Assembly: GCF_964355755.1 (NCBI RefSeq)
Contig: NC_092672.1
Coordinates: 1,984,001 to 2,048,000, forward strand
Length of the DNA stretch: 64,000 nucleotides
From: Antedon mediterranea
Lineage: Eukaryota > Echinodermata > Crinoidea > Comatulida > Antedonidae
Reading direction: 5' to 3'
In this document: positions 20,997 through 59,900 of the stretch, piece after piece
Numbering within the stretch: the first letter of the stretch is position 1
How the letters are laid out: every line of letters starts with the position of its first letter
Position numbers and translations under genes: made by a program
The notes under the pieces: model-generated
Seen by the model: the letters and a program-made list of their open reading frames with translations, nothing else
Told to the model about the DNA's origin: nothing
Databases searched by the model: none

Positions 20997-21052
<56 letters not shown>
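20997..21052. repeat. ATTG microsatellite
   Basis: About fourteen uninterrupted ATTG units preceded by AATTGAAGAATTAAAGA. The same tetramer ends a LINE fragment at 35,052, so this may also be a retroposon tail. Confidence 0.9.
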
Positions 21053-21054
<2 letters not shown>

Positions 21055-27645: not shown

Positions 27646-27647
27646 TC

Positions 27648-29258
27648 ACTGCTGAGATGTTTGAGAGTGACCAGTCTTATTATATGCCTATTGTAAGAAC
27701 TAAACGGTCAACTAGGGTACATCAACGTGAGTAAATCACTGCTGAGATGTTTGAGAGTGACCAGTCTTATTATATGCCTATTGTAAGAACTAAACGGTCA
27801 ACTAGGGTACATCAACGTGAGAGTAAATCACTGCTGAGATGTTTGAGAGTGACCAGTCTTATTATATGCCTATTGTAAGAACTAAACGGTCAACTAGGGT
27901 ACATCAACGTGAGAGTAAATCACTACTGAGATGTTTGAGAGTGACCAGTCTTATTATATACCTAATTGTAAGAACTAAACGGTCAACTAGGGTACATCAA
28001 CGTGAGAATAAATCACTGCTGAGATGTTTGAGAGTGACCAGTCTTATTATATGCCTATTGTAAGAACTAAATGGTCAACTAGGGTACATCAACGTGAGAG
28101 TAAATCACTGCTGAGATGTTTGAGAGTGACCAGCCTTATTATATGCCTATTGTAAGAACTAAACGGTCAACTAGGGTACATCAACGTGAGAGTAAATCAC
28201 TGCTGAGATGTTTGAGAGTGACCAGTCTTATTATATGCCTATTGTAAGAACTAAACGGTCAACTATAGGGTACATCAATGTGAGTAAATCACTGCTGAGA
28301 TGTTTGAGAGTGACCAGTCTTATTATATGCCTATTGTAAGAACTAAACGGTCAACTAGGGTACATCAACGTGAGTAAATCACTGCTGAGATGTTTGAGAG
28401 TGACCAGCCTTATTATATGCCTATTGTAAGAACTAAACGGTCAACTAGGGTACATCAACGTGAGAGTAAATCACTGCTGAGATGTTTGAGAGTGACCAGT
28501 CTTATTATATGCCTATTGAAAGAACTAAACGGTCAACTAAGGTACATCAACGTGAGAGTAAATCACTGCTGAGATGTTTGAGGGTGACCAGTCTTATTAT
28601 ATGCCTATTGTAAGAACTAAACGGTCAACTAGGGTACATCAACGTGAGAGTAAATCACTGCTGAGATGTTTGAGAGTGACCAGTCTTATTATATGCCTAT
28701 TGTAAGAACTAAACGGTCAACTAGGGTACATCAACGTGAGAGTAAATCACTGCTGAGATGTTTGAGAGTGACCAGTCTTATTATATACCTATTGTAAGAA
28801 CTAAACGGTCAACTAGGGTACATCAACGTGAGAGTAAATCACTGCTGAGATGTTTGAGGGTGACCAGTCTTATTATATACCTATTGTAAGAACTAAACGG
28901 TCAACTAGGGTACATCAACGTGAGAGTAAATCACTGCCGAGATGTTTGAGAGTGACCAGTCTTATTATATGCCTATTGTAAGAACTAAACGGTCAACTAG
29001 GGTACATCAACGTGAGAGTAAATCACTGCTGAGATGTTTGAGAGTGACCAGTCTTATTATATGCCTATTGTAAGAACTAAACGGTCAACTAGGGTACATC
29101 AACGTGAGAGTAAATCACTGCTGAGATGTTTGAGAGTGACCAGTCTTACTATATGCCTATTGTAAGAACTAAACGGTCAACTAGGGTACATCAACGTGAG
29201 AGTAAATCACTGCTGAGATGTTTGAGAGTGACCAGTCTTATTATATGCCTATTGTAAA
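27648..29258. repeat. 92-bp tandem array, 17 full copies plus a partial one
   Basis: The unit starts CTGCTGAGATGTTTGAGAGT and includes AACTAAACGGTCAACTAGGG and TACATCAACGTGAGAGTAAA. Most copies are 92 bp; a few are 90-94 bp through loss of GA or small insertions. Copies differ by only a few substitutions, so the array is young or homogenised. As 92 is not a multiple of three, each pass shifts frame, and the short ORFs here (starting MFESDQSYY) are by-products. Confidence 0.95.
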
Positions 29259-36293: not shown

Positions 36294-39200
36294 ATGTTAA
36301 AGATGAATTTAAATTTGTTTGATTTCAAATGGAATTTAATCGAAACAAATAATAGTTGTTCTTGTAGTTTTAATGACTTTTGTAAAGCTGTGGATGTGTG
36401 GCTCATGAAACCTCATGTTTTGAATAGACGAATCTGTACATCTCAAATGTTATGGAGAAAAGAGATTCCAAACACGAAATTATTAACATTTCTAGAAGGC
36501 TGTATAAATTCTGATGCAGAATGTACAGCGGTACAAGACAATTCTAGCAATGACAGTAAATGTGTTGAATGTTGTCTCCGCAAACTTTTACCACGTAACA
36601 GAAGAAATGAAACTGTCAATGAAATTATTGTTATTGGTATGAACAAATTGCTAAATGTTGTCATGGTGATCAAAATGAAATTACTTTATTTAAAGTTATT
36701 TTCACACAAGAATAAGATACTACTTTTTACAATTATTCCAATAACTTTCAATTTTTTTTCAGATAATTCATCAGCAACTGTTATATTTATTCCTCTGGAA
36801 AACCCGAGTGCGTCAATACCATCTTTGGGTTGCGAGAATCTAATAAACAATACAGGTTACAAGATAGAGTTTAACGAAAGTGATCATAGGTATTAAAAAG
36901 ACCTTATACAATAACATACAATTTTAAAAATATATTTACCGGCTTATCTACACTATCAAACTTTGTGACAAAAAAATGCCCATAATGGACATGATGATGT
37001 CATATCAATACCATATTTGGGCACATCACACTTTTTTTTGTCAAACTAGTTTGATAGTGTAGACAGAGCTTTATGCTATACCCAATTTTTTTTAAACCCA
37101 TTTTTGGTTGGTTTTTTTCATAACAAAATCAAAGGTACTTAAATTATGATGATGATGACAGTGTGATCAGAATTTTTGAAAAAATAATAACTAAATTATG
37201 ATAAAATAAAACATTTTATTTTTAGCCTGAAATTGTTCGTTGGACAAGACTATAGCATCTCCGCCACAAGTAGTTTTGCACGACCTTCTATACCGTGGTT
37301 GAAAAATCAACTGTTGCCAAAATTGATAAAGTGGGCCACCGAAAACAATGAAGATTCTGGCAACCAATTTACATCCTTAGTTGCTATGGACAAATACAGC
37401 AAGTTGTACGCCGAACTGAAGCAAAAATATGGTGCCAAGTTTGTAAAGGTAAATTTATTTCTACGATGGATGAACTATTTGTTGTGCGAGTTAAATTAAT
37501 TAAAATCTTTTACAACTTGGAGAGTTAATAAACTTATAAAAGTGTGGCACTCTTTTCCTTTCAAGTATGTTTTCGTAAAAGTTCATAAATTTCTACTTCT
37601 ATTCTTAATATTTAATTTTCGTTTGGTCTTTAAGCTGTGGACAGAGGTGACTGATCCCCAAAAATTTGTTTATGAAGATGTTGCCATAGCAGCATACATC
37701 CTCACGTTGTGGCGGCAGGAAACGGACGAGCTAGGGTTAACGACCCCACAGTCTTTCATTGATCTTGGATGCGGTAATGGATTATTAGTTCATATTCTGA
37801 CTTGCGAAGGAGTAAGTGTACAGAGGTACATAGTAATATATCTGATAAATAAAAGACAACAGCATCCAACTAAAAATGTTAGTTATAGAAGCTGAGCCTA
37901 AACAGCGTATGCTGACAATCTTGATAAGTTATGATAAGTGTTTGTGTGTATACTAGTACACCGGGGTAACCCCTACTCATCTCGAAAGATGTACTAGGTG
38001 TTCATGAGCCAGATGTGTACACTGGACCTATGGTTTATAGTCTTTTTCCGAGAAGACTCGTTCTACCACAAGAACCATGGAGCGAGTAAGGCTCGAATCC
38101 TTACAAAGGTATTACGGTTCTTCTGTCTTAACCGCTTGGCCACTCACTCGCTAAAACAGTACATAACCTACACCCCTGGAATCTCAATGTGACCAACCAC
38201 CAAGCTAACATTTACTCATACTAGTAGTAAATTCATACATCTACAGTAATGACTTTGATTTGTAAAAGATTTCTTAATTTTTAAATTCTGTTTTTTTTAG
38301 CATCGTGGAAAAGGAGTTGATTTACGCAAAAGGAAAATATGGGATCTGTATGGAGAAGAAACTTGTTTAGAAGAATCTGCTATCACTCCATCAGACAGTA
38401 ATCTATTCCCAGAATATGATTGGCTAATTGGTAACCATTCAGATGAGCTGACTCCATGGATACCAGTTATTGCTTCCAGGTCAGGTCAAGAGAAATTCTA
38501 AAGCTCTTTATTCATTCCTCACTGTGAGTGTGAGAAAAATATCTCAAAATGTAACATTCAGCAATAAATCAAAATAACTGCTGTATTTTGTCATTTATTT
38601 TGTAGGTCATCTTTCAACACTAGATACTTTGTTCTACCGTGCTGTTTTCACGATTTTAATCGCAAGTTTGCACGCGTTAACTCAAACCAAGGGCAGTACA
38701 GAGCGTATCTAGATTTTGTGTTTGAGATCGGCCAAATATGCGGTTTTACAGTTCTTGAAGACAGGCTGCGAATCCCATCAACTAAAAGGGTTTGTTTAAA
38801 AATGTTGAAAAAATTAAAATAGCTAAACTATGAATGATTATGATTGTAGAAAAAGACAGTCAGATTGTCATTAGCAAAATAAAAACAAATCATCTCAAAC
38901 AACAAGATCAACAAATTAAATACCAATAAATCATCAAGAAACACTTTTTTAAAGGAATCAATTTTTGGAGGTGGAGTTTTCAGAAAAATGATCATCATAA
39001 CACAGCACAATAGTGTCTGCTTTTAGGATAGTTGTTTACTATTCTACTTCATACTATATAGATTCATTCTTTCTTAGATATGCCATGTTGGAAAAACCCG
39101 TACATACAAACAAGAAGAACAAAAGAAAATTGATTCAAAGATAAAAGAACTTATTGAAAAAAGGTCATCCACAAAGAAAACTGATTATTCAAATAATATG

Positions 39201-40624: not shown

Positions 40625-43600
40625 TTACATACTTTCGATGATAGATCTGCTTCGTACAACTGATTGGTTCTGTAAGAAAAAAACAAACAACTTATAACTT
40701 TTCTAAATTGTCTAAAGTTGTTAATGTTTCGCACGTTACCTAAAGTTTTCTAAAGTCCGCAAGTTTTCTAAAGTTTCCCAAGTTTTCGGAAGTTTTCCAA
40801 GTTTTCTAATGTCTCCCAAGTTTTCTAAAGTCTCATGTTTTCTGAAGTCTCCCAAGTTTTCTAAAGTCTCCCAATTCTTTTTTAAAGTTGGAAAAGTTTT
40901 ATAAAATAATCCTATTGTTTTCCATAAAGTTTCAGAAGTTTTCTAAAATAATGAATCTCGTACACAAATTCTGAAAATATCCCAAGATCCACGAGATTCG
41001 CACACAATCTGGAAGTCCCAAAAGGCCCGTTATAAATTAAACAACAAGCTTCTTTAGTGATATTCCAACATTTTTATGAATTAAATCGAGATACTGTATA
41101 TGATTTGTATGATAAATTTTTCTATTACATACCTGCATTTGGTTGGCTGATATAATGCTCTTGTTATTCATACGATCTACGGAACTATCGTTAGTTTTCC
41201 ACGGCATATAGACGGTATACGATTGCGGATACTTTGCTATGTTTGCCATGTACTTTTTGTTTAACTGTAAATCAACAGAGATGCATTAACCACTATGATT
41301 TACTATAATGACATTAAACAGTTTTCGAAATAGTACGCACTGACAATTATCATAAGTTTCTAAAAAATGAAAATTGTATAAGAACTATAAGTTGCATACT
41401 CGCGCGCGCACAATACATTATTTAAAGTTTGGTTTGTGTCTGAGATCACAATAGCAAGGGATTCGAAACTAGTATGATTTTCTTTTGTGTTGCACTTGCC
41501 GACAGTCTCGACGCCGTGGGCATCATTATGTCAACTTGCTGGGCTTAATCTCATTGGTTATCAGTGACTCCGTGACTTTGCGCCCGCGCAGTTTTATTAG
41601 TAGAAAATCAGTGATCCACAAAGAAAGTTTGCGAGAGAATCTCGCGGCGAATACGCCGATTAATGCACATGAATCCCTGTTAATAATACTTGTCTCAGTT
41701 AGTGTTGAGGACCCCAAGAGCACACGGGCGCTGGAAATATGATGGAATATATTAAAATAAAATAAATTGTAGAATGCAATAAATGACGCACACGCGTGCG
41801 ACTCAAGAGTGGTAATGACAAATTAAAAGCGATAATTCCAATGATCCATCGCTTGCGGCCGGCAGTCCATACGTTGCGACCCAATGAATAGTGACACAAA
41901 CCCTCTCAAAACGTACAGTGTTACTACACACACAACTTTTATAATAATGGTTGATAAAACAATAAAGTTTTTTTTTTTTTTTTTTTATTCAGTTGTCAAC
42001 CAACAGCGATGAAACCGCCACTAACAGGTTGAATAATAAATTGTAAACAATTAGAAACAATTAAGTTCATTGTGTATTGTTACGTCATCGTTGCTGCAAA
42101 CAATCAACCATCAAACATTCCATTTGTTTCAAACATTATGTACAATTTTGTCTGTGCGTGTTTTGTCAACATTAACAAAAAGATACCAATGCTTACCTCC
42201 CATTCGTGTTCCCATTTTAGATGGCTATAGTGTGCCTCTTTAGAGAAGATCCGCTTCAGTATAGCTTGATTTTCGTGAGTGACCCGCAGTAATTCTCGCT
42301 GACGCTTCGTTTTATTCAAACTTTAAAAAGAGATACTGGACATGAAATAATGACACGCAACTTCGACGAAATAATAAGAATGAATAAAAGCGTGTTATTG
42401 TTACGGATCGCATTCTACTCGTGAAAGCTATCTCACGACTGCACCTGGTTATTTACATACTTAGTGACGTCATTTCATAATAAATGATAAATCACGTATT
42501 GGATGAGGTTGTGGCAATTAAAATAAGGATATTATTATTATTAAAATATGATTCAAATTGTTAAAAAATAAGCTTTAAAGATGAATCATGAATAAATGTG
42601 TGAACACAAAAAAAAATATGAAAAAAAAAAACTATTTAACATAGCGAAATTGATCGTTAAAAAAAAGAATTGTGTTTGGCCATATCGTTCGGGCTACCAA
42701 TCGCATTCTATTCATGACCGCTTTCCCGTTACTACTCCACGTGGGAACTTTTGCGTTTTTCGAGTTACTCTCAGGAACTATAATATGTATTGGCATATTG
42801 ATGAAGTTTTTTTTATTAAGATTTTGTTTTGAAAATGCTACTTTAAAATGTAAAAAGAATGAAATAAAAGACAACAATAGTTCTTTTGAAAATTGAGGCA
42901 TTTGCCTATTTGAAGTAAAAAAAAATAAAAAAATAAAAGAATTGTGTTTGACCATATCGTTCGGGCTACCGATCGCATTCTACTCATGACCGCTTTCCCG
43001 TTAATACTCCACGTGGGAACTTTTGCTTGCTGTGTTGCCACCCTGGGCCAGTACGTTCCTCCTTAGTCAACCTGGTTGTCCATGCCTCCACTTGGCCAAC
43101 CATATCGACGCCGAGTTTAACGTGGACGTTCAATCGACATAGAACAACGACCGACACGATTCCCGAACTCATGCCATCCAACAATCCCGGCTTCCCGAGT
43201 CACTGGATTACAGACGCACGCCACAACGCCCAGCCGACAGAAACCAATTAATTAAGCACCTCGTTATTTACATACTGAATTTACATACTGAGTGACGTCA
43301 TACACGTCATCGAATTATCGAAAGGTCACTGGGTCGATTCGTTTGATTTTACGCTCAGCGCTGATGTATATTGAGATAGCTTTGTATAAAGAATTTTCTG
43401 CAAACATGGCTGCAATAAAAATAATGAAATAACATATGTATTTAGGCCTACTAGTAAAGTTAAAATAAAAAAAAACGGCACTAGATCGAGTTGTTACTTT
43501 TACGCTCAGGGACTATAATATGTATTGGTATATTGATAACGTTTTTCTATTAAGAATTTTTTTTGAAAATTCTACTTTAAAATGTAAAAATAATGAAATA

Positions 43601-46600
43601 AAAGACAATAATACTTAATAGTTCTTTTAAGATTGAGGGACGGGGCCTATTTCAAGTTCGTCCAAAAAAAAAAAAAAAAGAAAAAAAGAATTGTGTTTGG
43701 CCATATCGTTCGGGCTACCGATCGAATTCTACTCATGACCGCTTTCCCGTTACTACTCCGCGTGGGAACTTTTGCTTGCTGTGTTGCCACCCTGGGCCAG
43801 TACGTTCCTCCTTAGTCAACCTGGTTGTCCATGCCTCCACTTAGCCAACCATATCGACGCCAAGTTGTTTAACGTGGACGTTCAATCGACATAGAACAAC
43901 GACCGACACGATTCCCGAACTCATGCCATCCAACAATCCCGGCTTCCAGAGTCACTGGATTACAGACGCACGCCACAACGCCCAGCCGACAGAAACCAAT
44001 TAATTAAGCGCCTCGTTATTTACATACTGAATTTACATACTGAGTGACGTCATTATTCACGTCATCGAAATATTTAAACGTCACTAGATCGAATCATTTA
44101 CTTTGACGCTCAACGCCGACGTATATTAAGGAGGGTTTTCTATAAAAAAATTTCTAAAAATGGTTGCATTAAAAATAACGAAATAACATATGTATTTGCT
44201 ACTAAAGTTAAAATAAAAAACGTCACTATATCGAGTTGCTGCTTTTACGCTCAGGGACTATAATATGTATTGGCATATTGATGAAGTTTTTTTATTAAGA
44301 TTTTGTTTTGAAAATGCTACTTTAAAATGTAAAAAGAATGAAATAAAAGACAAGAATAGTTCTTTTGAAAATTGAGGCATTTGCCTATTTGAAGTAAAAA
44401 AAAAAGAAAAAATAAAAGAATTGTGTTTGGCCATATCGTTCGGGCTACCGATCGTATTCTACGAATGACCGCTTTCCCGTTACTACTCCACGTGGGAACT
44501 TTTGCTTGCTGTGTTGCCACCCTGGGCCAGTACGTTCCTCCTTAGTCAACCTGGTTGTCCATGCCTCCACTTGGCCAACCATATCGACGCCGAGTTTAAC
44601 GTGGACGTTCAATCGACATAGAACAACGACCGACACGATTCCCGAACTCATGCCATCCAACAATCCCGGCTTCCAGAGTCACTGGATTACAGACGCACGC
44701 CACAACGCCCAGCCGACAGAAACCAATTAATTAAGCACCTCGTTATTTACATACTGAGTAACGTCATACACGTCATCGAATTATCGAAATGTCACTGGGT
44801 CGATTCGTTTGATTTTACGCTCAGCGCCGATGTATATTGAGATAGCTTTGTATAAAGAATTTTCTGCAAACATGGCTGCAATAAAAATAATGAAATAACA
44901 TATGTATTTAGGCCTACTAGTAAAGTTAAAATTTAAAAAAATGTCACTAGATCGAGTTGTTACTTTTACGCTCAGGGACTATAATATGTATTGGTATATT
45001 GATAACGTTTTTCTATTAAGAATTTTTTTGGAAAATTCTACTTTAAAATGTAAAAATAATGAAATAAAAGACAATAATACTTAATAGTTCTTTTAAGATT
45101 GAGGGACGGGCCTATTTCAAGTTCGTCCAAAAAAAAAAAAAAGAAGAAAAAAAGAATTGTGTTTGGCCATATCGTTCGGGCTACCGATCGCATTCTACTC
45201 ATGACCGCTTTCCCGTTACTACTCCACGTGGGAACTTTTGCTTGCTGTGTTGCCACCCTGGGCCAGTACGTTCCTCCTTAGTCAACCTGGTTGTCCATGC
45301 CTCCACTTGGCCAACCATATCGACGCCGAGTTGTTTAACGTGGACGTTCAATCGACATAGAACAACGACCGACACGATTCCCGAACTCATGTCATCCAAC
45401 AATCCCGGCTTCCGGAGTCACTGGATTACAGACGCACGCCACAACGCCCAGCCGACAGAAACCAATTAATTAAGCACCTCGTTATTTACATAGTGAATTT
45501 ACATACTGAGTGACGTCATTATTCACGTCATCGAAATATTTAAACGTCACTAGATCGAATCATTTACTTTGACGCTCAACGCCGAGGTATATTAAGGAGG
45601 TTTTTCTATAAAGAATTTTCTACAAATGGATGCAATAAAAATAATGAAATAACATATGTATTTGCTACTAAAGTTAAAATAAAAAAAGTCACTATATCGA
45701 GTTGTTGCTTTTACGCTCAGGGACATATGTATTAGCATATTGATGAAGTTTTTTTTTATTAAGATTTTGTTTTGAAAATGCTACTTTAAAATGTAAAAAG
45801 AATGAAATAAAAGACAATATTAGTTCTTTTGAAAATTGAGGCATTTGCCTATTTGAAGTAAAAAAAAAATAATAAAAAAAAAATTGTGTTTGACCATATC
45901 GTTCGGGATACCGTTCGCATTCTACTCATGACCGCTTTCCCGTTACTACTCCACGTGGGAACTTTTGCTTGCTGTGTTGCCACCCTGGGCCAGTACGTTC
46001 CTCCTTAGTCAACCTGGTTGTCCATGCCTCCACTTGGCCAACCATATCGACGCCGAGTTTAACGTGGACGTTCAATCGATATACAACAACGACCGACACG
46101 ATTCCCGAACTCATGCCATCCGACAATCCCGGCTTCCAGAGTCACTGGATTACAGACGCACGCCACAACGCCCAGCCGACAGAAACCAATTAATTTAGCG
46201 CCTCGTTATTTACATACTGAATTCACATACTGAATGACGTCATTATTCACGTCATCGAAATATTTAAACGTCACTATAAGATCGAGTCATTTACTTTGAC
46301 GCTCAACGCCGAGGTATATTAAGGAGGTTTTTCTATAAAGAATTTTCTACAAATGGATGCAATAAAAATAATGAAATAACATATGTATTTGCTTCTAAAG
46401 TTAAAATAAAAAACGTCACTATATCGAGTTGTTGCTTTCACGCTCAGGGACTATAATATGTATTGGCATATTGATGAAGTTTTTTTTATTAAGATTTTGT
46501 TTTGAAAATGCTACTTTAAAATGTAAAAAGAATGAAATAAAAGACAAGAATAGTTCTTTTGAAAATTGAGGCATTTGCCTATTTGAAGTAAAAAAAAAAA

Positions 46601-49600
46601 AAATAAATAAAGAATTGTGTTTGACCATATCATTCGGGCTACTCCACGTGGGAAGTTTTGCTTGCTGTGTTGCCACCCTGGGCCAGTACGTTCCTCCTTA
46701 GTCAACCTGGTTGTCCATGCCTCCACTTGGCCAACCATATCGACGCCGAGTTTAACGTGGACGTTCAATCGATATACAACAACGACCGACACGATACCCA
46801 AACTCATGCCATCCAACAATCCCGGCTTCCAGAGTCACTGGATTACAGACGCACGCCACAACGCCCAGCCGACAGAAACCAATTAATTAAGCGCCTCGTT
46901 ATTTACATACTGAATTTACATACTGAGTGACGTCATTATTCACGTCATCGAAATATTTAAACGTCACTAGATCGAGTCATTTACTTTGACTCTCAACGCC
47001 GAAGTATATAAGGAGGTTTTTCTATAATGAATTTTCTAAAAATGGCTGCATTAAAAATAATGAAATAACATATGTATTTGCTTCTAAAGTTAAAATAAAA
47101 AACGTCACTATATCGAGTTGTTGCTTTTACGCTCAGGGACTATAATATGTATTGGCATATTGATGAAGTTTTTTTTTTATTAAGATTTTGTTTTGAAAAT
47201 GCTACTTTAAAATGTAAAAATAATGAAATAAAAGACAACAATAGTTCTTTTGAAAATTGAGGCATTTGCCTATTTGAAGTAAAAAAAAAATAAGAAAAAA
47301 AAAGAATTGTGTTTGGCCATATCGTTCGGGATACCGATCGCATTCTACTCATGACCGCTTTCCCGTTACTACTCCACGTGGGAACTTTTGCTTGCTGTGT
47401 TGCCTCCCTGGGCCAGTACGTTCCTCCTTAGTCAACCTGGTTGTCCATGCCTCCACTTGGCCAACCATATCGACGCCGAGTTTAACGTGGACGTTCAATC
47501 GACATAGAACAACGACCGACACGATTCCCGAACTCATGCCATCCAACAATCCCGGCTTCCAGAGTCACTGGATTACAGACGCACGCCACAACGCCCAGCC
47601 GACAGAAACCAATTAATTAAGCGCCTCGTTATTTACATACTGAATTTACATACTGAGTGACGTCATACACGTCATCGAATTATCGAAATGTCACTGGGTC
47701 GATTCGTTTGATTTTACGCTCAGCGCCGATGTATATTGAGATAGCTTTGTATAAAGAATTTTCTGCAAACATGGCTGCAATAAAAATAATGAAATAACAT
47801 ATGTATTTAGGCCTACTAGTAAAGTTAAAATAAAAAAAACGTCACTAGATCGACTTGTTACTTTTATGCTCAGGGACTATAATATGTAGTGGTATATTGA
47901 TAACGTTTTTCTATTAAGAATTTTTTTGGAAAATTCTACTTTAAAATGTAAAAATAATGAAATAAAAGACAATAATACTTAATAGTTCTTTTAAGATTGA
48001 GAGACGGGGCCTATTTCAAGTTCGTCCAAAAAAAAAAAGAAGAAAAAAAGAATTGTGTTTGGCCATATCGTTCGGGCTACCGATCGCATTCTACTCATGA
48101 CCGCTTTCCCGTTACTACTCCACGTGGGAACTTTTGCTTGCTGTGTTGCCACCCTGGGCAAGTACGTTCCTCCTTAGTCAACCTGGTTGTCCATGCCTCC
48201 ACTTAGCCAACCATATCGACGCCGAGTTGTTTAACGTGGACGTTCAATCGACATAGAACATCGACCGACACGATTCCCGAACTCATGTCATCCAACAATC
48301 CCGGCTTCCAGAGTCACTGGATTACAGACGCACGCCACAACGCCCAGCCGACAGAAACCAATTAATTAAGCGCCTCGTTATTTACATACTGAATTTACAT
48401 ACTGAGTGACGTCATTATTCACGTCATCGAAATATTTAAACGTCACTATAAGATCGAGTCATTTACTTTGACGCTCAACGCCGAGGTATATTAAGGAGGT
48501 TTTTCTATAAAGAATTTTCTACAAATGGATGCAATAAAAATAATGAAATAACATATGTATTTGCTACTAAAGTTAAAATAAAAAACGTCACTATATCGAG
48601 TTGTTGCTTTTACGCCCAGGGACTATAATATGTATTAGCATATTGATGAAGTTTTTTTTTATTAAGATTTTGTTTTGAAAATTCTACTTTAAAATGTAAA
48701 AAGAATGAAATAAAAGACAATATTAGTTCTTTTGAAAATTGAGGCATTTGCCTATTTGAAGTAAAAAAAAAATAATAAAAAAAAGAATTGTGTTTGGCCA
48801 TATCGTTCGGGATACCGTTCGCATTCTACTCATGACCGCTTTCCCGTTACTACTCCACGTGGGAACTTTTGCTTGCTGTGTTGCCACCCTGGGCCAGTAC
48901 GTTCCTCCTTAGTCAACCTGGTTGTCCATGCCTCCACTTGGCCAACCATATCGACGCCGAGTTTAACGTGGACGTTCAATCGATATACAACAACGACCGA
49001 CACGATACCCAAACTCATGCCATCCGACAATCCCGGCTTCCAGAGTCACTGGATTACAGACGCACGCCACAACGCCCAGCCGACAGAAACCAATTAATTT
49101 AGCGCCTCGTTATTTACATACTGAATTCACATACTGAATGACGTCATTATTCACGTCATCGAAATATTTAAACGTCACTATAAGATCGAGTCATTTACTT
49201 TGACGCTCAACGCCGAGGTATATTAAGGAGGTTTTTCTATAAAGAATTTTCTACAAATGGATGCAATAAAAATAATGAAATAACATATGTATTTGCTTCT
49301 AAAGTTAAAATAAAAAAACGTCACTATATCGAGTTGTTGCTTTCACGCTCAGGGACTATAATTTATGTATTGGCATATTGATGAAGTTTTTTTTATTAAG
49401 ATTTTGTTTTGAAAATTCTACTTTAAAATGTAAAAATAATGAAATAAAAGACAATAATACTTAATAGTTCTTTTAAGATTGAGGGACGGGCCTATTTCAA
49501 GTTCGTCCAAAAAAAAAAAGAAGAAAAAAAGAATTGTGTTTGGCCATATCGTTCGGGCTACCGATCGCATTCTACTCATGACCGCTTTCCCGTTACTACT

Positions 49601-52600
49601 CCGCGTGGGAACTTTTGCTTGCTGTGTTGCCACCCTGGGCCAGTACGTTCCTCCTTAGTCAACCTGGTTGTCCATGCCTCCACTTGGCCAACCATATCGA
49701 CGCCGAGTTGTTTAACGTGGACGTTCAATCGACATAGAACAACGACCGACACGATTCCCGAACTCATGCCATCCAACAATCCCGGCTTCCAGAGTCACTG
49801 GATTACAGACGCACGCCACAACGCCCAGCCGACAGAAACCAATTAATTAAGCGCCTCGTTATTTACATACTGAATTTACATACTGAGTGACGTCATTATT
49901 CACGTCATCGAAATATTTAAACGTCACTAGATCGAGTCATTTACTTTGACTCTCAACGCCGAGGTATATAAGGAGGTTTTTCTATAAAGAATTTTCTAAA
50001 AATGGTTGCATTAAAAATAATGAAATAACATATGTATTTGCTACTAAAGTTAAAATAAAAAACGTCACTATATCGAGTTGTTGCTTATTACGCTCAGGGA
50101 CTATAATATGTATTAGCATATTGATGAAGTTTTTTTTATTAAGATTTTGTTTTGAAAATGCTACTTTAAAATGTAAAAAGAATGAAATAAAAGACAACAA
50201 TAGTTCTTTTGAAAATTGAGGCATTTGCCTATTTGAAGTAAAAAAAAATAAGAAAAAAAAAGAATTGTGTTTGGCCATATCGTTCGGGATACCGATCGCA
50301 TTCTACTCATGACCGCTTTCCCGTTACTACTCCACGTGGGAACTTTTGCTTGCTGTGTTGCCACCCTGGGCCAGTACGTTCCTCCTTAGTCAACCTGGTT
50401 GTCCATGCCTCCACTTGGCCAACCATATCGACGCCGAGTTTAACGTGGACGTTCAATCGACATAGAACAACGACCGACACGATTCTCGAACTCATGCCAT
50501 CCAACAATCCCGGCTTCCAGAGTCACTGGATTACAGACGAACGCCACAACGCCCAGCCGACAGAAACCAATTAATTAAGCACCTCGTTATTTACATAGTG
50601 AATTTACATACTGAGTGATGTCATACACGTCATCGAATTATCGAAACGTCACTGGGTCGATTCGTTTGATTTTACGCTCAGCGCCGATGTATATTGAGAT
50701 AGCTTTGTATAAAGAATTTTCTGCAAACATGGCTGCAATAAAAATAATGAAATAACATATGTATTTAGGCCTACTACTAAAGTTAAAATAAAAAAAAAAC
50801 GTCACTAGATCGAGTTGTTACTTTTACGCTCAGGGACTATAATATGTATTGGTATATTGATAACGTTTTTCTATTAAGAATTTTTTTTGAAAATTCTACT
50901 TTAAAATGTAAAAATAATGAAATAAAAGACAATAATACTTAATAGTTCTTTTAAGATTGAGGGACGGGGCCTATTTCAAGTTCGTCCAAAAAAAAAGAAG
51001 AATTGTGTTTGGCCATATCGTTCGGGCTACCGATCGCATTCTACTTATGACCGCTTTCCCGTTACTACTCCGCGTAGGAACTTTTGCTTGCTGTGTTGCC
51101 ACCCTGGGCCAGTACGTTCCTCCTTAGTCAACCTGGTTGTCCATGCCTCCACTTGGCCAACCATATCGACGCCGAGTTGTTTAACGTGGACGTTCAATCG
51201 ACATAGAACAACGACCGACACGATTCCCGAACTCATGCCATCCAACAATCCCGGCTTCCAGAGTCACTGGATTACAGACGCACGCCACAACGCCCAGCCG
51301 ACAGAAACCAATTAATTAAGCGCCTCGTTATTTACATACTGAATTTACATACTGAGTGACGTCATTATTCACGTCATCGAAATATTTAAACGTCACTAGA
51401 TCGAGTCATTTACTTTGACTCTCAACGCCGAGGTATATAAGGAGGTTTTTCTATAAAGAATTTTCTAAAAATGGCTGCATTAAAAATAATGAAAAAACAT
51501 ATGTATTTGCTACTAATGTTAAAATAAAAAACGTCACTATATCCAGTTGTTGCTTTTACGCTCAGGGACTATAATATGTATTAGCATATTGATGAAGTTT
51601 TTTTTATTAAGATTTTGTTTTGAAAATGCTACTTTAAAATGTAAAAAGAATGAAATAAAAGACAACAATAGTTCTTTTGAAAATTGAGGCATTTGCCTAT
51701 TTGAAGTAAAAAAAAAATAAAAAATAAAAGAATTGTGTTTGACCATATCGTTCGGGCTACCGATCGCATTCTACTCATGACCGCTTTCCCGTTAATACTC
51801 CACGTGGGAACTTTTGCTTGCTGTGTTGCCACCCTGGGCCAGTACGTTCCTCCTTAGTCAACCTGGTTGTCCATGCCTCCACTTGGCCAACCATATCGAC
51901 GCCGAGTTTAACGTGGACGTTCAATCGACATAGAACAACGACCGACACGATTCCCGAACTCATGCCATCCAACAATCCCGGCTTCCAGAGTCACTGGATT
52001 ACAGACGCACGCCACAACGCCCAGCCGACAGAAACCAATTAATTAAGCGCCTCGTTATTTACATACTGAATTTACATACTGAGTGACGTCATACACGTCA
52101 TCGAATTAACGAAATGTCACTGGGTCGATTCGTTTGATTTTACGCTCAGCGCCGATGTATATTGAGATAGCTTTGTATAAAGAATTTTCTGCAAACATGG
52201 CTGCAATACAAATAATGAAATAACATATGAATTTAGGCCTACTAGTAAAGTTAAAATAAAAAAAACGTCACTACATCGACTTGTTACTTTTACGCTCAGG
52301 GACTATAATATGTATTGGTATATTGATAACGTTTTTCTATTAAGAATTTTTTTGGAAAATTCTACTTTAAAATGTAAAAATAATGAAATAAAAGACAATA
52401 ATACTTAATAGTTCTTTTAAGATTAAGGGACGGGGCCTATTTCAAGTTCGTCCAAAAAAAAAAGAAGAAAAAAAGAATTGTGTTTGGCCATATCGTTCGG
52501 GCTACCGATCGCATTCTACTCATGACCGCTTTCCCGTTACTACTCCACGTGGGAACTTTTGCTTGCTGTGTTGCCACCCTGGGCCAGTACGTTCCTCCTT

Positions 52601-55600
52601 AGTCAACCTGGTTGTCCATGCCTCCACTTGGCCAACCATATCGACGCCGAGTTGTTTAACGTGGACGTTCAATCGACATAGAACAACGACCGACACGATT
52701 CCCGAACTCATGCCATCCAACAATCCCGGCTTCCAGAGTCACTGGATTACAGACGCACGCCACAACGCCCAGCCGACAGAAACCAATTAATTAAGCGCCT
52801 CGTTATTTACATACTGAATTTACATACTGAGTGACGTCATTATTCACGTCATCGAAATATTTAAACGTCACTAGATCGAGTCATTTACTTTGACTCTCAA
52901 CGCCGAAGTATATAAGGAGGTTTTTCTATAATGAATTTTCTAAAAATGGCTGCATTAAAAATAATGAAATAACATATGTATTTGCTACTAAAGTTAAAAT
53001 AAAAAACGTCACTATATCGAGTTGTTGCTTTTACGCTCAGGGACTATAATATGTATTGGCATATTGATGAAGTTTTTTTTTTATTAAGATTTTGTTTTGA
53101 AAATGCTACTTTAAAATGTAAAAATAATGAAATAAAAGACAACAATAGTTCTTTTGAAAATTGAGGCATTTGCCTATTTGAAGTAAAAAAAAAAAATAAG
53201 AAAAAAAAAGAATTGTGTTTGGCCATATCGTTCGGGATACCGATCGCATTCTACTCATGACCGCTTTCCCGTTACTACTCCACGTGGGAACTTTTGCTTG
53301 CTGTGTTGCCACCCTCGGCCAGTACGTTCCTCCTTAGTCAACCTGGTTGTCCATGCCTCCACTTGGCCAACCATATCGACGCCGAGTTGTTTAACGTGGA
53401 CGTTCAATCGACATAGAACAACGACCGACACGATTCCCGAACTCATGCCATCCAACAATCCCGGCTTCCAGAGTCACTGGATTACAGACGCACGCCACAA
53501 CGCCCAGCCGACAGAAACCAATTAATTAAGCGCCTCGTTATTTACATACTGAATTTACATACTGAGTGACGTCATTATTCACGTCATCGAAATATTTAAA
53601 CGTCACTAGATCGAGTCATTTACTTTGACTCTCAACGCCGAAGTATATAAGGAGGTTTTTCTATAATGAATTTTCTAAAAATGGCTGCATTAAAAATAAT
53701 GAAATAACATATGTATTTGCTACTAAAGTTAAAATAAAAAACGTCACTATATCGAGTTGTTGCTTTTACGCTCAGGGACTATAATATGTATTGGCATATT
53801 GATGAAGTTTTTTTTTTATTAAGATTTTGTTTTGAAAATGCTACTTTAAAATGTAAAAATAATGAAATAAAAGACAACAATAGTTCTTTTGAAAATTGAG
53901 GCATTTGCCTATTTGAAGTAAAAAAAAAAAATAAGAAAAAAAAAGAATTGTGTTTGGCCATATCGTTCGGGATACCGATCGCATTCTACTCATGACCGCT
54001 TTCCCGTTACTACTCCACGTGGGAACTTTTGCTTGCTGTGTTGCCACCCTCGGCCAGTACGTTCCTCCTTAGTCAACCTGGTTGTCCATGCCTCCACTTG
54101 GCCAACCATATCGACGCCGAGTTTAACGTGGACGTTCAATCGACATAGAACAACGACCGACACGATTCCCGAACTCATGCCATCCAACAATCCCGGCTTC
54201 CAGAGTCACTGGATTACAGACGCACGCCACAACGCCCAGCCGACAGAAACCAATTAATTAAGCACCTCGTTATTTACATACTGAATTTACATACTGAGTG
54301 ATGTCATACACGTCATCGAATTATCGAAACGTCACTTGGTCGATTCGTTTGATTTTACGCTCAGCGCCGATGTATATTGAGATAGCTTTGTAATAAAGAA
54401 TTTTCTGCAAACATGGCTGCAATAAAAATAATGAAATAACATATGTATTTAGGCCTACTACTAAAGTTAAAATAAAAAAAAACGTCACTAGATCGAGTTG
54501 TTACTTTTACGCTCAGGGACTATAATATGTATTGGTATATTGATAACGTTTTTCTATTAAGAATTTTTTTTGAAAATTCTACTTTAAAATGTAAAAATAA
54601 TGAAATAAAAGACAATAATACTTAATAGTTCCTTTAAGATTGAGGGACGGGGCCTATTTCAAGTTCGTCCAAAAAAAAAGAAGAATTGTGTTTGGCCATA
54701 TCGTTCGGGCTACCGATCGCATTCTACTCATGACCGCTTTCCCGTTACTACTCCACGTGGGAACTTTTGCTTGCTGTGTTGCCACCCTGGGCCAGTACGT
54801 TCCTCCTCAGTCAACCTGGTTGTCCATGCCTCCACTTGGCCAACCATATTGACGCCGAGTTTAACGTGGACGTTCAATCGATATACAACAACGACCGACA
54901 CGATTCCCGAACTCATGTCATCCAACAATCCCGGCTTCCAGAGTCACTGGATTACAGACGCACGCCACAACGCCCAGCCGACAGAAACCAATTAATTAAG
55001 CACCTCGTTATTTACATACTGAATTTACATACTGAGTGACGTCATTATTCACGTCATCGAAATATTTAAACGTCACTAGATCGAGTCATTTACTTTGACT
55101 CTCAACGCCGAGGTATATAAGGAGGTTTTTCTATAAAGAATTTTCTAAAAATGGTTGCATTAAAAATAATGAAATAACATATGTATTTGCTACTAAAGTT
55201 AAAATAAAAAACGTCACTATATCGAGTTGTTGCTTATTACGCTCAGGGACTATAATATGTATTAGCATATTGATGAAGTTTTTTTTATTAAGATTTTGTT
55301 TTGAAAATGCTACTTTAAAATGTAAAAAGAATGAAATAAAAGACAACAATAGTTCTTTTGAAAATTGAGGCATTTGCCTATTTGAAGTAAAAAAAAAAGA
55401 AAAAATAAAAGAATTGTGTTTGACCATATCATTCGGGCTACCGATCGCATTCTACTCATGACCGCTTTCCCGTTACTACTCCGCGTGGGAACTTTTGCTT
55501 GCTGTGTTGCCACCCTGGGCCAGTACGTTCCTCCTTAGTCAACCTGGTTGTCCATGCCTCCACTTGGCCAACCATATCGACGCCGAGTTTAACGTGGACG

Positions 55601-56596
55601 TTCAATCGACATAGAACAACGACCGACACGATTCCCGAACTCATGCCATCCAACAATCCCGGCTTCCAGAGTCACTGGATTACAGACGCACGCCACAACG
55701 CCCAGCCGACAGAAACCAATTAATTAAGCACCTCGTTATTTACATACTATGACGTCATCATCATACGATAGGTTTTTCTATAACAAATTAAATAAGGAAC
55801 TACAATACAATATAGGCCTAGTATAATTTAGTAAAATTTAAGGCTACATAAACACTAAGGCCCGTATTAGTACATAGCCTGGTGAGTGAAAGAAAGCTCC
55901 TTCACCATCGTAATTCTTAAAGGAACTTTTTTATTTTTTATTTTAATCAATTTCTGATTTCATCCCCCAGTTACAACAATAATACCACACCCTCAATCAA
56001 GACACACCTTTTCTGTTCGTAGTCATTGTAATTGTCAACACGCCCTCTTGTTCGCATAATGTAACACATCTTTTCCAGGAGAATCCGATTATCTCGTTCA
56101 ATAATTGCTGTTCGTTCCTCTTCCATTTGCAGCTTTTTTAGTTTCAAATGTAGATGCATGTATATGTGTGGGGGTCGATTGTCAATTACTGCTTGCGCTA
56201 TCAAAACAATGTTATTGTTATTCTTTTTACAAATTGATTAAAGATCGATACAATTTAGAAAGTCAGTGGCTAAGAATATCTAGCCCTACCAGTAGTACTA
56301 GGTGGCCTACAACAGGTTACTTAAGCTCTGTTATGTCAAACAAGTTTGACGAAAAAACTGTGTTGTGCCCAAATATGGTAGTGATATGATGCCATAGTGT
56401 CCATATATGGGGCGCATCACATTTTTTTTTCAACATAAAGTTTGAGACAGAGTATGTAGACAGAGCTTTAAACATAAACAATACATTAATTACCATTCTG
56501 AACTTTTTGCCGATGCCTGTCGAACCGACTTTGGTCCCATCTTTGCTTGAGTAATTTGTTATTTGCCGGTGTGATGGGCTGATACGCTCGATGCAT
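40625..56596 (-). CDS. CFAP97D2-like: CFAP97 domain-containing protein, CFAP97D1/D2 type (Hemingway family)
   Basis: Five minus-strand exons join in phase into 194 codons plus stop: 56494-56596, 56008-56188, 42197-42320, 41133-41264 and 40625-40669. The protein starts MHRAYQP. It continues with PPHIYMHLHLKLKKLQMEEE and RDNRILLEKM (exon 2), then KSLNKTKRQRELLRVTHENQ across the exon 2/3 junction. These are the conserved blocks of the CFAP97 (KIAA1430-like) domain, and the KSLN...REL..T.ENQ block closely matches CFAP97D1. Part of exon 2 is probably coiled coil. CFAP97D1 is needed for sperm axoneme maintenance in mouse; a flagellar or ciliary role here is inferred from family. D1 and D2 cannot be separated with certainty, although the N-terminus looks D2-like. 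Intron 2 is 13.7 kb and nearly all satellite DNA. The gene is head-to-head with CATSPER4. Confidence 0.88.
40740..40880. repeat. degenerate short tandem repeat, about 20 bp unit
   Basis: AAGTTTTCTAAAGTCTCCC-like units recur about seven times in CFAP97D intron 4. Confidence 0.8.
42441..55759. repeat. intronic satellite array, about 735-bp monomers in higher-order A/B arrangement
   Basis: About 18 full monomers lie head to tail inside CFAP97D intron 2. The anchor CCATATCGTTCGGG (or a close variant) recurs at 42680, 42952, 43701, 44431, 45167, 45894, 46625, 47317, 48063, 48798, 49544, 50275, 51013, 51743, 52488, 53223, 53958, 54696 and 55424. Spacing is 727-749 bp except for a truncated first unit (272) and one with an internal deletion (692). 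Each monomer has an A-rich tract, a GC-balanced core of about 330 bp, then an AT-rich tail. Two linker types precede the anchor: A, with GAGGGACGGGGCC (or GAGGGACGGGCC), and B, with GAGGCATTTGCC. From the second anchor on they run B A B A B B B A B A B A B A B B A B. Both flanks keep TTATTTACATAC followed by GACGTCAT, marking the edges. Confidence 0.95.
55760..56007. other. intron sequence between satellite array and CFAP97D exon 2
   Basis: The only non-satellite part of the 5' side of intron 2. It holds two AGGCCT-type motifs and nothing else recognisable. Confidence 0.5.
56321..56470. mobile_element. MITE family A copy 17
   Basis: Fills most of CFAP97D intron 1. Left TTAAGCTCTGTTATGTCAAA; right end GTAGACAGAGCTTTA preceded by an inserted ACAGAGTAT. 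Confidence 0.8.
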
Positions 56597-56900: not shown

Positions 56901-59900
56901 ATGGAAGAAATATCTAAAGAGTGTGATGGCAATAATATTCCGACAGATGAGTCGAAGAATATTCCAGTTGCAGAAACACAGAAAGCGGGGTCTGGGTTCA
57001 AACGTGCAACACTCGGTTTGACTGCTTTTAAAAAGGTAGGTTTAGCCTAACTAGGCCTAGGCCTAGGCCTAGGCCTAGACCTACCTAGGCCTAGGTCTAG
57101 GCTGTCTAGCTAGCCTTGTTGTAGTAGGCCTACTGGGCTAGGTTAAGCTCCTTTCTTTGTTATTGTGTAGGCCTCTAGGCCAAGCTGCTTATGTATAACG
57201 AACGGATCCATTATGTGTAGCCTATGTTCATGCATTGAGGCTCTAAAATATTAAAAACATTTATTTTTCAGATTGGAGAAAAGGTAAAAGTTGGAAATCG
57301 ATTGATGGGTAAGAAAGATAAATTGCCTGAAAATGATAGGTAAGACAAACGAGATAGGCCTACTAGCTCCTGAGCTTAAAAGCTAAGGCTAACCATCGGA
57401 CGGTAATTTCAAGGTGTAGGTTCAGTCAAATGAAAATAGGAACAAATTTGTAGTTCAGTAAATTCTAGAATTATGTATCAGCGGACTGTACAGCTCATTG
57501 CAAGAGAACATATATAATATTTCAATTTCATAAATAAGTGATATGATTACGTCACTAATGCGAATAATCCATTCTTATTTCTACCTAGTGATGAAATACA
57601 ACGCGTGTTTACGTTTGATGAATCGGCGGTAAGTGCAATCTAATGTAGTTTGTTGAAAGATATTTCGAACATTGTCCAAAATATTAAAATATTATATTGC
57701 GCATTGCACGCTATGTTTAATGAAATTGTCAGATTTAGGACGGCACTTGGACTTTGTGAAGAAAGGAAATGCATTTTGGTTGGTTGATATCACCCCTTTA
57801 AAGGCCAATTTACACAGACGATCGAGCGGTAACGGTAATAAAAAATATGTTATTTTTTATGAACATTTACACACAACTTAACACGGAGCGAACGGAAGGC
57901 TTCAACTCAGAAAAGACACAGATTCTACGTGGGACAAGCTACGTGATTTTTCGCTTAACGTTACCGCTCGTCTGTCTGTGTAAATTGACCTTTATACTCA
58001 ACACAAGGTGTTTCAATCCCATTTAATACTTAGCAGAAACTTGTATTTTCTTAATAAATCAACATTACACCTATATTGAAGCTACCAGTTGTGCGCACTA
58101 TAGAGGAAAAAGATGATGATACGGTGATGAAGAAGATTATGATAATGATGTCGGTAAAAATTACGCAATATGTTATCATCAAACTGAACGATTTACTTGA
58201 TTTTTATTATTAGGTGAAAGAGGGCGCATCGATATCCGAACTCTTTGCAAGTGACGAAGTTGAAGAAGATTTCAACGCCATCGTAGACCAGGATGATGAC
58301 CGTGTGGAAGCGTTCGTGTCGCAAGAGCTGGTGGGCCAGATGGTCGACAGCTACTTCTTCCGATCTTTTATATTCGCTGTTATTGTTGCCAATGCTGTTC
58401 TGATTGGCTTGCAGACCAATGAGGAACTCGTAAGTAGGCCTAAACATCATTTTACATTTTGAAACGTAACAAACCATTCATACTACCAATTTAGTGGAAA
58501 GTTAGCATTTATCTTCGAAATACAAAATAGCATTTTAGTGATCAGACAAAAGAAAGAGTTTGGCTAAGATAATATGAAACAGATTTAAATTCAAACTCAA
58601 TTCACAAATTAGTCTCAGTCTTAATGCTTGATTCACACCAAATCAAACCAAAGCGCACACAACTGACGGTTCAGATCCTAGAATTATACCATGTGTAAAT
58701 TAAATGACATTATATTACGGTAACATTTATATATCTTTTTACAACAGTCTAGAGACTATGCCAATCTGTTTTCTGTGTTCGATAACATTGTACTCACCAT
58801 ATTTGTGTGTGAATTAGCTTTAAAATGGTACAACGGATTCTTTATTTACTGGCGAGTCGGTTGGAATGTTCTAGACTTCTTCATTATACTGACACTTCTT
58901 CTTGGTCCAAGTAAGTGTAGACAAAGTCCCACCCTTCTCTGTCGTCATTATTGTCACACGCGCGCGTATATCGTTCCGCTTCAGTGTTTCATTCATGTTG
59001 ATCTTATTTCACTTTTTAGTAAATCTCTCAATTTTGTTTCTAATTGTTGTTGGATATTTCCACAGCATTGACGTTTCTTGGTAGCAGCAGAATCTTAAGA
59101 ATCTTACGAGTGCTAAGAGCTTTTCGAAGTCTTAGAAGGTAGGTGATACTCAGTGTTAGTGGAAAATAAATAATTACACCAAAATTGATTTAGACTTGTA
59201 GGCCTAAATGTCTACCAAACTTAAATTTGTTTCGCTTCTCCAATTCTGAGTAAGTTTTATTTTGTTGGTATTCTTTACAGTATTAGTGCATTAACGGGTC
59301 TTTCTGTAGTTGTTCAGACGATCTTTCAATCCGTTCCAGGTAGGTAAACAACTAAACGACGCGCAACGCAAGTAACGACGCGCAACGCACATAATATCAC
59401 TATCACAAAAATAGCAAACTGTCGATTGGTCGCCCTTACGTCATAAGACTTTAACTATTATTTTTCCAGATATGACCAACATTGCTCTTCTTTTGATTAT
59501 CATAATGTTAGTGTTGGGTGTTGCCGGTGTCTCACTATTCGGCAAAGATGTACCGAAACACTTCGGTGACATGACTGCAGGTAAAATTAAAACATTAACA
59601 CTGTATTAAACCGACAAATATGTCATTAATAATATACAACTAAAAAAGTAACTATAAATAAAACTATGTCTACACTATCAAACTAGTTTGACAAAAAAGT
59701 TTCATGTGCCCAAATGTGGTAGTGATATTCTTAAATATGATAGTGATATGACATCATCATGTCTATAGTTGGGCACATCGCATTTTTTTTGGCACATAAA
59801 GTTTGATAGTGTAGACAGAGATTAAGTTAAGAAATGACAACAACTTTAGGCCATGAGTGAGTTACAGAAGATATATTGATGTGCTTTAACGTGTACATTA

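Follow-up and report, generated by a model that had tools for sequence, protein, structure and literature searches.

The analysed window was a 64-kb stretch of contig C3 (C3:1984001-2048000) with zero N and zero gaps. It carries a CFAP97D gene of five exons on the minus strand: exon 1 at 56494-56596 (ATG at 56596), exon 2 at 56008-56197 (donor gtgtgt), exon 3 with the KSLN block at 42197-42320, exon 4 at 41133-41264, and exon 5 with the TAA stop at 40625-40669. All exons were placed using a spliced gene model, with the addition of PDB alignment for exons 1 and 3 and of Pfam PF13879 for exons 2 and 3. Every junction is GT-AG, and the CDS of 594 nt encodes 197 aa plus the stop, which agrees with the original prediction of fewer than 600 coding bases. 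That prediction had exon 3 at the same coordinates and exon 2 at 56008-56188, the end of which was corrected to 56197. The spliced product matched Pfam Hmw_CFAP97 (PF13879) at 96.2 bits over profile positions 1-99 of 100 (cutoff, 25.6), i.e., a complete domain, with the matches of exons 2 and 3 consecutive along the profile. It aligned over residues 1-170 with the sea urchin sperm doublet-microtubule CFAP97 (PDB 8SNB, chain 8snb_4T) at 247.5 bits and with mammalian CFAP97D1 chains at ~92 bits. The product is thus a full-length member of the CFAP97D1/Hemingway family (PF13879), with the sea urchin sperm doublet protein nearest to it among solved structures; the animal is probably an echinoderm.

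Exons 2 and 3 flank intron 2 (42321-56007, 13,687 bp, minus strand, phase 2; gene model and PDB alignment), which carries an array of SRP RNA genes. The joint reads EQK|SLN in phase 2, and the alignment to 8snb_4T is gap-free across it, so that the predicted in-phase joining and restored KSLN block were borne out, as was a 13.7-kb intron spanning the array. A CFAP97D paralog on contig C5 reads ...NDYEYK|SLNKEKRQ and is interrupted at the same codon and in the same phase by an intron of only ~217 bp, whereas intron 2 here is 13.7 kb owing to the gene array. Exons 1-2 and exons 3-5 could in principle be two transcripts with the array lying between genes. This is very improbable in view of the in-phase joint, the consensus splice sites, the gap-free alignment to one sea urchin protein, and the intron of the C5 paralog, and no other copy of exons 1-2 or exons 3-5 with a comparable fit was found among the PF13879 matches. 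One CFAP97D gene with a single intron 2 spanning the entire array is strongly supported by the encoded protein, with the splice itself predicted.

Repeat-derived sequence at 42402-55757 makes up 97.6% of intron 2, and intact array units at 42936-55757 make up 93.7%. The array had been placed at 42441-55759 and about 97% of the intron described as satellite; the share held, the limits became those given here (the wider ones including remnants), and the satellite label was given up, the units being SRP RNA genes. As predicted, 18 units were counted, a copy number taken from the assembly, where the array may be collapsed or expanded. The units are arranged head to tail, are ~735 bp each with a spacing of 692-749, and all lie on the minus strand, i.e., sense to CFAP97D. 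Numbered in transcription order, the SRP RNA genes (all minus strand; RF00017 scores in brackets) are u1 at 55408-55706 (218.5 bits), u2 at 54680-54978 (201.3 bits), u3 at 53942-54240 (222.3 bits), u4 at 53207-53508 (211.9 bits), u5 at 52472-52773 (210.5 bits), u6 at 51727-52025 (214.8 bits), u7 at 50997-51298 (209.1 bits), u8 at 50259-50557 (216 bits), u9 at 49528-49829 (212.3 bits), u10 at 48782-49080 (203.7 bits), u11 at 48047-48348 (200.1 bits), u12 at 47301-47599 (218.4 bits), u13 at 46597-46869 (113.2 bits; internal deletion, probably a pseudogene), u14 at 45878-46176 (203.7 bits), u15 at 45151-45452 (205.7 bits), u16 at 44415-44713 (217.6 bits), u17 at 43685-43986 (206.6 bits), and u18 at 42936-43234 (214.9 bits). 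Beyond u18, blastn identified a truncated SRP RNA 3' part, ~97% identical to the array genes, at 42659-42754 on the minus strand, and older remnants on the same strand at 42402-42480, one of them an SRP RNA 3' fragment (76% over 50 nt) and the other a piece of upstream spacer/promoter.

7SL RNA forms the core of the cellular machinery for protein export. The RF00017 covariance model (gathering cutoff, 70 bits) matched 18/18 units on the host-gene strand, 17 of them at full length (positions 1-299) with 200-222 bits. In the full-length units, the SRP RNA core occupies 299-302 nt of each 735-bp unit. The Alu-domain UGUAAUC, the helix 6 GGAG loop, and the helix 8 GCAA loop with AGCA were found in 17/17 full-length units, and 93-96 model pairs were kept in each of the 17. 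In u3 and u4, a C is replaced by G in the region of the helix 8 internal loop. The array units are SRP (7SL) RNA genes by sequence and structure. An ordinary non-coding satellite that happens to occupy an intron would account for the long head-to-tail arrangement and for a higher-order period of two units (1466 bp); such a reading has next to no chance here, since the covariance model identifies each of the 18 monomers as SRP RNA and no dispersed copies of the sequence were found in the genome. It was rejected on the RF00017 matches, as every unit is by sequence and structure a gene for SRP RNA.

Every unit has at least one upstream CRE half-site (TGACGT/ACGTCA), located at -51 in u1 and as far out as -97 in other units, compared with 0.16-0.17 expected from the shuffle control. 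At the array edge, u1 is preceded only by a minimal promoter (55707-55757, minus strand), read from the sequence as TGACGTCA at -51 and the invariant AT-rich block. T-runs follow every array unit. The human 7SL promoter has TATA-like, ATF/CRE, and internal elements (reviewed in PMC8362101), and the CRE half-sites and T-runs of the array units agree with it. Judged from these signals, the units would be transcribed by Pol III. Upstream of a solo 7SL gene on contig C1 there are three CRE half-sites, at -91 to -117, where shuffles gave ~0.17; beyond the CRE half-sites, local alignment of the C1 and array promoters was no better than shuffles. The array units share with metazoan SRP RNA genes (RF00017) the full-length fold, the protein-binding motifs, the upstream CRE/ATF half-sites, and the T-run terminator, and differ in that there are 18 head-to-tail copies here plus one diverged solo copy. 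The view of the array as satellite, a type of DNA generally excluded from transcribed genes, does not fit the RF00017 matches, the promoter and terminator features, and the kept RNA fold. Since the array looks like a functional cluster of small-RNA genes, its location in transcribed chromatin is no paradox but what one would expect. A depletion of sense-strand poly(A) signals in the array (AATAAA + ATTAAA, 12 versus ~30 in shuffles) was dropped as a candidate signal, the antisense count being raised and the units non-independent.

The array genes have a mean identity of 97.9%, and the proximal promoter of the units is as conserved as the gene itself. The spacers fall into two classes, ~97% alike within and 86% between (~14% difference), and since the two classes roughly alternate, the array has an alternating dimer period of 1466 bp. 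Units u3 and u4 are near-identical neighbours. A 3-nt AAC insertion in helix 5 was seen in seven units (u4, u5, u7, u9, and u11 within 48047-53508, and u15 and u17 within 43685-45452), which mostly precede the second spacer class.

The genome (354 Mb, 18 contigs) was searched with RF00017, and the sole further locus found was C1:16943811-16944109(-) at 252.8 bits, locus counts being lower bounds. The array spacer sequence was not found elsewhere in the genome. At the sequence level, to which this uniqueness applies, the array comprises nearly all of the 7SL genes found in this genome. 7SL is a known source of some SINEs, and a run of SINE-like retroposed 7SL copies would draw on that origin; it is exceedingly improbable, as the units have their own upstream promoter and spacer, a single orientation, and near-constant spacing, and the genome-wide search matched just one locus beyond the array. 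SINE-like retroposition was rejected on this unit architecture and on the lack of dispersed copies in the search. Just a few 7SL genes are active in humans. In schistosomes, eight 7SL candidates have been reported, one of them almost canonical (PMC2770079).

The array consensus and the C1 7SL gene are identical at 235/299 positions (79%), with 64 differences (21%), 57 of which fall in helices. Of the 120 model pairs, 94 are formed in C1 and 96 in the array consensus, compared with 73 left (sd 4, maximum 88, 5000 trials) after random changes with the same transition share. Compensatory double changes between array and C1 numbered 10, whereas in the random trials they averaged 2.2 and never exceeded 8. 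The kept pairing and the 10 compensatory pairs indicate that both lineages evolved under selection for the SRP fold. This bears on whether the array is a dead 7SL-derived satellite, its copies spread by unequal crossing-over and untranscribed, with all SRP RNA coming from the C1 gene. The C1 gene scores above the 200-222 bits of the full-length units and is nearer the metazoan consensus (74% identity, array 65%), and it could supply most of the SRP RNA; the deleted u13 and the remnants at the array edge also suit this reading. A dead array is nonetheless improbable given the compensatory changes relative to C1, the intact protein-binding motifs in 17 full units, the invariant proximal promoter, CRE half-sites, and T-run of each unit, and a conservation of the genes that far exceeds the similarity between the spacer classes. 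Beside selection, the high identity of the array genes may partly be due to gene conversion.

Tandem arrays were also found for 5S (mostly C6), U2 (mostly C3:13.66-13.71 Mb), and U1 (C5:15.66-15.75 Mb), so that there is nothing exceptional in this genome about small-RNA genes forming an array. Like the 7SL array, these 5S rRNA, U1, and U2 arrays consist of short structural-RNA genes in head-to-tail units. What is unusual is 7SL in an array, the intronic site, and two diverged 7SL classes in one genome. Lists of tandemly arrayed gene families do not usually include SRP RNA, and searches of the open-access literature turned up no description of 7SL genes in tandem in a metazoan. Tandem structural-RNA genes are already known; this array is of interest for its position in an intron and for the coexistence of two diverged 7SL classes. 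Separate oocyte-type and somatic-type 5S rRNA genes exist in frogs, where, as here, an amplified tandem class accompanies a separate diverged class of one RNA; the present case differs in concerning 7SL with one solo gene and in that specialisation is only proposed. A solitary 5S gene at C3:4487846-4487964 scored 117.4 bits, higher than the C6 5S array (mostly 113.8), the same solo-plus-array pattern as in 7SL.

The locus is most probably a tandem 7SL gene cluster that lies within intron 2 of a CFAP97D-type sperm-axoneme gene and has the same orientation as this host. Each 735-bp unit would be one Pol III gene, composed of an upstream CRE/ATF-type element with the AT-rich block, the 299-302-nt SRP RNA, a T-run terminator, and a spacer. 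As the sequence signals suggest, Pol III would make SRP RNA from every unit separately, starting at the promoter and stopping at the T-run of that unit. Independently, Pol II would read CFAP97D through the array, and one splice would remove the whole array; the protein supports the splice, and the independence of the two processes is presumed. The array probably grew by unequal exchange of a 7SL gene already sitting in an ordinary short intron, because the intron of the C5 paralog is short, there are two spacer classes, and u3 and u4 are near-identical. Selection and/or conversion would have kept the genes alike while the spacers diverged into two classes. The amplification may have served SRP RNA dosage, as the analogy with the 5S, U1, and U2 arrays suggests. 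A further proposal, tentative and rather unlikely, is that there are two SRP RNA systems, a canonical single 7SL gene and an amplified, faster-evolving class of ~17 genes in the intron of a sperm-axoneme gene, the latter perhaps used in particular cells, e.g., the germ line, like frog 5S, and its expression perhaps interacting with transcription of the host gene.

The apparent paradox of a satellite in a gene becomes a case for testing how a Pol III gene cluster and the Pol II transcription and splicing of a gene can share one strand. The array also indicates that tandem organisation, as in 5S and snRNA genes, is open to SRP RNA genes. The two SRP RNA classes, which differ by 21% but fold alike, form a natural pair with which to ask whether a single genome maintains specialised SRP RNAs. 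As a caution, tandem repeats should be compared with RNA families before they are called satellite.

Upstream of CFAP97D, a plus-strand gene (56902-59400, ATG near 56902) starts ~300 bp from the CFAP97D start. It probably continues into an exon at 58.7-58.9 kb on the plus strand that has CatSper4 as best match (PDB 9ubw_D, 51.3 bits), and CFAP97D and the CatSper4-like gene are probably two sperm genes arranged head to head. Expression of mouse Cfap97d1 is confined to the testis (PMC7444823); if this holds here, the array would sit in chromatin opened in the male germ line. Elsewhere in the window, exons at 37191-37892 (+) match PF07757 (predicted AdoMet-dependent methyltransferase, 71 bits), probably TRMT44. 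A second tandem array at 27646-29257 has 17.6 copies of a 92-bp unit that are 97% alike, and a perfect ATTG tetranucleotide repeat of 14 copies is located at 20997-21053.
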